Assembly (NCBI RefSeq): GCF_001551835.1
Contig: NZ_LODL01000021.1
Span: 69,660-102,699 of the forward strand
DNA length: 33,040 nucleotides
From: Dechloromonas denitrificans
GTDB lineage: Bacteria; Pseudomonadota; Gammaproteobacteria; Burkholderiales; Rhodocyclaceae
Direction of reading: 5' to 3'
The stretch's first letter is position 1. Each line of letters starts with the position of its first letter. The translations under genes and the position numbers were made by a program. The notes under the pieces were generated by a model. It saw nothing but the letters and a program-made list of their open reading frames with translations. It was not told the DNA's origin and did not search any database. Of this stretch, positions 18,412-19,029 are shown in pieces.

Positions 18412-19029
18412 ATGTCCCGTTACACCGGCCCCCGCCTCAAAGTCCTGCGCGCCCTCGGCATCGACCTGCCCGGCCTGTCCCGCAAATCGATGCAGGAGCG
18501 GCCACAGCCGCCCGGCCAGCACGGCGCCCGCAAGCTGAGTAGCCGCAAGTCCGAATTCGGCCTGCAATTGATGGAAAAGCAGAAACTGCGCTACAACTAC
18601 GGCCTCTCCGAGGGGCAACTGCGCCGCGTCGTGCTCGACGCCAAGAAGCATCGCGGCGCCACCGGCGACAAGCTGGTCGAACTGCTCGAACGCCGCCTCG
18701 ACAACCTGGTTTTCCGCGCCGGTTTCGCGCCGACCATCCCGGCTGCCCGCCAGCTGGTCAGCCACGGCCACATTGCGCTGAACGGCCGCCGGGTGACCAT
18801 TCCATCGATCCGCATCCGGGTCGGCGATGCCTTCGGGCCGACCGAAGCGGGCCGCCAGCTCGCCGCTGTCCGCGCTACGCTGGACGATCCGGCGCTGGAA
18901 CGGCCGGAATGGATCGCCCTCGACAGCACGACGCTGACCGCCCGCCTCAGCCACCTGCCGGATGGCAGCTCGGCGCCCTTCCCGCTCGATCTGCAACGTA
19001 TCGTCGAGTATTACGCTACCCGAATGTAA
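18412..19029 (+). CDS. Ribosomal protein S4 paralogue, cysteine-free, cyanobacterial/plastid-like
   Basis: A 205-residue S4 protein: N-terminal RYTGPRLKVLRALG, PPGQHGARK (33-41), EKQKLRYNYGLSEGQ (55-69), then the S4 RNA-binding domain from about 95 to 155 (RRLDNLVFRAGFAP, ARQLVSHGHIALNGRRV) and the end RIVEYYATRM. S4 binds 16S rRNA early in 30S assembly. Compared with typical betaproteobacterial S4, the N-terminal region is short and the wording (GLSRK, EKQKLRYNYGL, FAPTIPAARQLV) matches the cyanobacterial/chloroplast type as I remember it. There is not a single cysteine. It lies 15 bases upstream of hemP behind Fur-like boxes, so it is probably an accessory S4 made at low iron, not the main rpsD. 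Confidence 0.9.
   Translation: MSRYTGPRLKVLRALGIDLPGLSRKSMQERPQPPGQHGARKLSSRKSEFGLQLMEKQKLRYNYGLSEGQLRRVVLDAKKHRGATGDKLVELLERRLDNLVFRAGFAPTIPAARQLVSHGHIALNGRRVTIPSIRIRVGDAFGPTEAGRQLAAVRATLDDPALERPEWIALDSTTLTARLSHLPDGSSAPFPLDLQRIVEYYATRM

Follow-up and report, generated by a model that had tools for sequence, protein, structure and literature searches.

A probable iron-sparing role for a cysteine-free ribosomal protein S4 encoded in a heme uptake operon of Dechloromonas denitrificans

Introduction

Metal-dependent swapping of ribosomal proteins is already known for zinc, where cysteine-free (C-) paralogues of L31, S14, S18, L28 and L33 lie behind sites for Zur, a metal repressor of the Fur superfamily. 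For ribosomal protein S4 (uS4), the part of Chen et al. 2009 (PMC3087516) on which we draw describes cysteine-free paralogues of class C-(IV), found beside a four-cysteine (C+) S4 and placed near Cyanobacteria; in its table Nitrosomonas europaea is the one betaproteobacterium that has both, and Methylobacillus flagellatus has two C-(IV) copies. That study classes C+ S4 as zinc-binding, in conflict with crystals of Thermus thermophilus in which uS4 carries Fe4S4 (PMC6555806, also drawn on in part); it sought Zur sites near the S4 paralogues and found none, and the word iron does not occur in its text as available to us. A case that bears on this conflict is a cysteine-free S4 (alternative rpsD) of D. 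denitrificans, encoded at 18412-19029 (+ strand) of a stretch of 33,040 nucleotides (contig NZ_LODL01000021.1, positions 69,660 to 102,699), hereafter the window. We consider it probable, from sequence comparison, that this protein is repressed by Fur while iron is plentiful and replaces the four-cysteine S4 in new 30S subunits when iron is short, so that ribosomes would stop locking up iron.

Genes in the order hemP then TonB receptor, with Fur-like sites, form a known type of Fur-controlled heme uptake operon. The window has this arrangement, and differs in that a complete ribosomal protein gene stands directly before hemP on the same predicted transcript. The resemblance to the zinc systems lies in a cysteine-free paralogue behind a (predicted) site for a repressor of the Fur superfamily; here, however, an S4 gene stands behind a site of Fur type, among genes for iron and heme, and the source genome yielded no Zur gene. 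The C-(IV) paralogues of PMC3087516 belong to the same class of S4, and to what we saw of that description our analysis adds the iron/heme link, the Fur boxes and the small neighbouring open reading frames (ORFs). Among the matches listed in a literature search, titles and abstract openings held no iron- or Fur-controlled S4 and no iron counterpart of the zinc/Zur switch.

Results and Discussion

The ORF at 18412-19029 translates to 205 residues without a single cysteine, as the first-pass annotation of this DNA had stated, and it is a complete S4: it scores 218.9 bits against NF003717 (cut-off 116), which covers residues 1-202, and 209.8 bits against TIGR01017 (cut-off 177.2), both Pfam S4 domains are found, the fold is that of S4 and 30 of 31 universal S4 residues are retained. 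The residues that mark class C-(IV), Leu or Phe at 15 and Gly or Pro at 21, are here L15 and G21 in the protein's own numbering. At the C+ insertion site, where the insertion comprises seven residues according to the part of PMC3087516 used here, our alignment gives the protein a six-column gap, and all four cysteines are absent. Its closest named relative is from Dechloromonas hortensis (95%), and the sequences of the cysteine-free paralogues carry the mark of purifying selection.

The source genome (4.24 Mb in 41 contigs) holds one other S4, of 209 aa, on another contig (G000:C5:213032-213658, start VARNLDPKCRQCRREGEKLFLKGEKCFTDKCAIERRSYAPGQHG), and the cysteine-free copy lies in the heme operon, outside the alpha operon. 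This main S4 (P0002) has the complete C+ motif KCRQC...KCFTDKC, that is CxxC then C(x4)C, so that the suggestion of a second S4, for which the first-pass annotation had wanted the cysteines of the main copy compared, is borne out, and the cysteine-free gene is not the only S4 of the genome. The same pattern, CxxC-(CxxxxC), is used for [4Fe-4S] uS4 in the part of PMC10450194 that we consulted; it is present in the main S4 and missing from the 18412-19029 product. The main S4 thus shares its motif class with the Thermus [4Fe-4S] uS4, from which the genome under study differs in having a cysteine-free paralogue that lacks the cluster site. We infer that [4Fe-4S], and not zinc, is what the main S4 holds in these mesophiles.

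The unit in which the cysteine-free S4 lies is predicted to start at a sigma70-like promoter at 17198-17226 (+; TTTACA - 17 nt - TATCAT, 10 of 12 consensus matches), the sole + strand promoter of this type found in a scan of 17050-19520. A Fur-box-like palindrome, TGAGAACCATTCTCA (17226-17240), matches the Fur motif at 13 of 14 positions, touches the end of the -10 element and covers the start region; it is one of two sites with at least 12/14 in the window, and locus L003 has a 14/14 site at the identical distance from S4 (-1186). The annotated picture of a unit that begins at Fur-like boxes agrees with this prediction, and the spacing given for hemP holds, as its start (19045-19263, +; PF10636, 59.3 bits, cut-off 25) lies 15 bases past the S4 stop codon. 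A Fur-family model search of the genome gave a single gene, which the NCBI model identifies as ferric iron uptake regulator (185 bits, cut-off 146), and no Zur gene.

We scanned 61 loci with cysteine-free S4 for the Fur motif (7-1-7, 14 scored positions), leaving out L008, L016 and L028 (where the contig ends close to the gene or within it) and L012, L147, L151 and L152 (copies of others), and excluding from the counts the short loci L083-L112, which had a single scan with minus-strand ones not reoriented. Within 700 bp upstream, sites of at least 11/14 occur in 34 of the 61 loci (shuffle mean 1.0, maximum 4) and sites of at least 12/14 in 26 (shuffle mean 0.1, maximum 1); within 1250 bp the counts rise to 40 and 31 respectively. 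The 700-base window beginning at the S4 start codon has no site of at least 11/14 in any of the 61. As controls we took the 42 of 45 main-S4 loci with a readable start: upstream of C+ S4, sites of at least 12/14 occur in 0 of 42, 11/14 in 4 and 10/14 in 34, the last probably reflecting shared coding sequence, so that the threshold of 12/14 is clean on these controls, 11/14 is not and 10/14 is useless.

The same kind of scan bears on the zinc alternative, in which C+ S4 holds zinc and the cysteine-free copy came under Fur merely through landing in an iron operon. The zinc class given to C+ S4 and the zinc response of the known ribosomal protein switches (both in the part of PMC3087516 seen here) speak for it. 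However, in none of 66 upstream windows does the Zur-like palindrome TGTTATANTATAACA attain 12/14 (at least 11 in 1, at least 10 in 3), as against 28 of 66 for the Fur-like motif, and no Zur gene, the other mark of the Zur-controlled paralogues, was found in the source genome, so that Zur control was rejected. Together with the sole Fur-family gene being Fur, the fruitless Zur search and the Thermus Fe4S4 already mentioned, this makes zinc sparing, in our judgement, unlikely. That the predicted site at the alternative S4 is of Fur rather than Zur type is evidence, in turn, for iron in the S4 of living mesophiles.

The genes around the cysteine-free S4 were examined in 68 loci, oriented and gene-called, with neighbour families named by Pfam on representatives. 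They include TonB receptors, TonB, ExbB, ExbD, FecR, a FecI-like sigma factor, ferritins, FeoB, FTR1 permease, an Fe2+ transport protein, a ChaN-type heme protein, hemP and a cluster of CobN, an ExbB-like protein and DUF2149. This last cluster resembles the Hmu heme operon, whose HmuS is linked to CobN. HmuS is described, in the part of PMC12583661 consulted, as a heme de-chelatase. An iron-catalogue gene beyond CobN lies within 5 kb in 53 of 66 loci (the 61 of the Fur counts with L210-L214) and in 1 of 40 size-matched control regions, placed at round chosen coordinates in 14 of the genomes and searched with the same catalogue. That catalogue was derived from the same S4 neighbourhoods to which it was applied. 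The loci are mutually related, so that a Fisher p-value for this contrast cannot be read literally. The kind and order of the iron genes vary from genus to genus, which argues for a recurrent association rather than a single inherited operon, and a fixed operon as the cause of the iron linkage was rejected on the same ground, since the iron genes recur while their order and kind differ.

These neighbours also bear on whether the exchange might be a redox or accuracy switch, answering to cluster damage or changing decoding accuracy under iron or oxidative stress, with iron saving secondary. S4 influences decoding accuracy, Fur repression fails in oxidative stress as well, and an S4 mutant and peroxide are treated in the portion of PMC8141631 seen here. 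Against this, the named neighbours belong to iron and heme uptake and storage, and no oxidative-stress family was found among the 30 neighbour proteins scanned, a subset of all neighbours; we regard such a switch as distinctly unlikely to be the chief function.

Matches to the cysteine-free S4 (at least 55% identity, a few of them partial or broken) were found in about 113 of 395 Rhodocyclaceae genomes. Of 40 carriers that were also searched with the main S4, 37 hold a C+-type copy as well, with four cysteines in all 37. In a tree of 85 rows, 34 paralogues form one clade (support 100/99), which joins cyanobacterial S4 together with two small groups of proteobacteria (100/98), and the C+ main copies fall elsewhere, at a clear distance; this agrees with the placement of Chen et al. 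2009 (PMC3087516, as far as seen). A vertical betaproteobacterial origin was thus rejected by the tree, and with it the possibility that this is ordinary betaproteobacterial rpsD. The cyanobacterial or plastid type suggested in the first-pass annotation holds in so far as the protein is cyanobacterial-like; the paralogues are sister to cyanobacterial S4 and not nested within it, so that the tree, which took in no plastid sequences, does not show descent from a cyanobacterium.

In a class-wide sample of 276 genomes, matches above 50% identity, the source genome aside, came from two genomes of one family, each with a single cysteine-free S4. These two (G720 and G818, loci L215 and L216) belong to a gammaproteobacterial family and their S4 groups with cyanobacterial S4; no Fur-like site of at least 10/14 was found within 900 bp of it. 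In genome G277 (L226:5349-5609) a truncated cysteine-free S4, 86 aa as read, lies between genes that by sequence are CobN-like and ExbB-like/DUF2149-like, a decaying copy that marks an earlier presence of the gene.

Patchy presence of this kind, and the broken or partial copies in L029, L226 and G532, are what one would expect if the gene were a spare that hitch-hikes or is constitutively expressed and plays no part in iron stress. The purifying selection, the repeated association with differing iron gene sets and the enrichment of Fur boxes all oppose this explanation, to which we give hardly any credence.

A family of genomes (f24) with and without the main S4 offers a comparison of the two states. 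We take it to be probably Methylophilaceae, since in its genome G910 there are two cysteine-free copies with equal scores, separated by about 143 kb, the two-copy state described for M. flagellatus in the part of PMC3087516 used here. Of 90 f24 genomes searched, 41 have cysteine-free S4, and 30 of these, with fetched loci, were scanned. In the 22 dual genomes the main S4 was read as four-cysteine throughout, the Fur box of the alternative S4 scores at least 12 in 21 (at least 13 in 17, perfect in 7), hemP lies inside the 1.5 kb flanks in 20, and a small ORF of about 90-115 residues stands directly upstream of S4 in 21. The 8 single-form genomes have a Fur site of 12 in one (at -966) and of at least 13 in none, with neither hemP nor the upstream ORF of about 90-115 residues in any of the flanks scanned; a TonB match is kept in 7. 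The weight of this contrast is qualitative, lying in single-form genomes without a strong Fur site.

In those 8 genomes, which include the single-contig G862 and G910, orthologues 60-62% identical are the only S4 found, which suggests that a cysteine-free S4 presumably works in ribosomes where no C+ gene was found. This bears on a further possibility, that the 18412-19029 product, though derived from S4, acts outside ribosomes as an RNA-binding protein that regulates the heme operon. S4 of E. coli binds and represses its own mRNA and joins rRNA antitermination, and the rrn antitermination complex containing S4 is among the fold matches of the cysteine-free protein. Set against these are the sole-S4 orthologues, the retention of all but one of the universal residues and the persistence of S4 while neighbouring genes change, and we think a regulator of this sort very improbable.

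A second origin of the same design is suggested by G106, a genome of another family, which encodes a C+ S4 together with a second one placed by the tree among alphaproteobacterial S4 (99/89 within 100/100). The second S4 is 66% identical to its best relatives, named Alphaproteobacteria or Magnetococcales, and still has cysteines at, or beside, two of the four C+ sites; its gene is preceded by a perfect Fur box that starts 54 bp upstream. Contamination as its source was rejected, as GuaA of the same contig is 87-89% identical to that of two same-genus genomes, so that the contig probably does belong to G106. In a sister genus, three genomes encode S4 of this type with weaker Fur-like sites (top scores of 11, 10 and 9 in the 600 bp upstream); no C+ copy was found in these three, which are 66-81% complete.

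Several observations weigh against an iron-controlled exchange of S4. No Fur-like site of at least 11/14 lies within 1250 bp in 21 of the 61 loci; in 14 of these 21, co-directional CobN-type or TonB/ExbB genes precede the S4 gene, and the promoter may be farther upstream. Four loci (L027, L030, L124 and L140) lack iron-catalogue neighbours as well as any site of at least 11/14, L030 also falling outside the paralogue clade, and about 282 of the 395 Rhodocyclaceae genomes searched gave no match to the paralogue. Genomes G212, G423 and G469 show the cysteine-free copy alone and yet have iron neighbours and Fur-like sites of 11-12/14, a pattern hard to reconcile with such an exchange unless their assemblies missed the C+ gene. 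Within f24, one dual genome, G870 (L294), lacks hemP and a Fur box alike, and the 8 single-form genomes form one tree group (82/68), which amounts to one evolutionary event; the p-values of the contrast between both-form and one-form genomes are overstated for this reason and we do not rely on them. The weakest link is which metal the main S4 would carry, since the Fe4S4 proposed for the betaproteobacterial protein is carried over from Thermus, where the cluster is established. Finally, the support consists of sequence, with a predicted Fur site and predicted regulation.

The unit is completed by several small genes on the same strand, in the order promoter and Fur site, 24-aa ORF, OrfA, OrfB, OrfC, S4, hemP and hairpin, followed by a weak Fur-like site and the TonB receptor. 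The 24-aa ORF (17257-17331, +) is hydrophobic and has tblastn matches of 52-73% in 8 of the 28 loci L003-L030. No NCBIfam family was found for OrfA (69 aa, 17353-17562, +), and none above its cut-off for the coiled-coil-like OrfB (146 aa, 17546-17986, +); OrfC (88 aa, 18133-18399, +) has no Pfam or NCBIfam match, lies upstream of S4 in 24 of the same 28 loci and has a predicted structure of low confidence (pLDDT 62). Profiles of OrfA match small ORFs beside S4 in other genera (hhalign probability 91%, E 1.3e-6) and those of OrfC match small ORFs beside S4 in other Rhodocyclaceae (92%, E 5e-7); the two gave no profile match to each other and were rejected as one family. The small ORF of f24 was likewise rejected as a relative of OrfC (no profile match, probability 0.9%) and matches the A4 set weakly (25%), so that a partner protein common to both families is not shown. 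Small proteins accompany the switchable S4, of OrfA/OrfC type in Rhodocyclaceae and of another type in Methylophilaceae-like genomes.

The leader of OrfC (18074-18105, +) has two AGCCAGCC repeats, and a pair also occurs in the leader of the TonB receptor (19467-19488); the window has 12 occurrences where 2.4 are expected, comparable leaders precede OrfC in several related loci, and the repeats are possibly an RNA-level control element. Past hemP lie a terminator-like hairpin with a T tract (19307-19321, +), from a scan in which terminator-like sites were not above the shuffle mean, and the second, weaker Fur-like site CAACAATCATTCTCA (19413-19427, 11/14), which precedes the gene for a TonB-dependent receptor of heme/hemoglobin type (19508-21565, +; PF00593, PF07715; TIGR01785 at 277.8 bits, below the cut-off of 316.85). 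Farther on, 25848-29776 (-) encodes a second TonB receptor and a PepSY_TM protein, adjoining an AraC-type regulator, so that the surroundings are rich in genes of iron-uptake type. A strong Fur-like site, TAATAATAATTCTCA (30949-30963, 13/14), lies directly before the gene for a DUF2325 protein (31024-32331), and a gene cluster with a DUF2325 representative is found near the alternative S4 in 10 of the 68 loci.

Conclusions

The observation made in the first-pass annotation stands, and its proposal that an alternative S4 serves at low iron is well supported by the sequence comparisons, to which our analysis adds the C+ main copy, the recurrent iron context, the Fur-box statistics, a sister family with this S4 as the sole one and a second origin. 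We propose that, at low iron, Fur would leave its operator, that cysteine-free S4 and HemP would then be made along with heme uptake, and that new ribosomes would take the cluster-free S4, each sparing 4 Fe. This S4 would also remove an iron-dependent, possibly oxygen-sensitive, step of assembly. Fur binding, induction at iron shortage and incorporation into ribosomes are thus the predicted stages of the exchange.

An E. coli cell has 10^4 to 7x10^4 ribosomes and about 10^6 Fe atoms. By these figures four Fe per ribosome would amount to 4-28% of cell iron, so that the saving could be real. Taking the lineages together, we lean, if only slightly, to a broader view: the ribosomes of many betaproteobacteria may be a Fur-guarded iron store whose normal S4 is an Fe-S protein, for which a cyanobacterial-type, cluster-free S4 from heme uptake operons would substitute at iron starvation; the design may have arisen a second time from an S4 of alphaproteobacterial type, and where a lineage lost the Fe-S S4 it may have kept the spare as its sole S4 and dropped the Fur control. 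If true, this iron version of a switch would bring the ribosome into the iron-sparing response and would tie S4, a protein of early assembly and of accuracy, to Fur.
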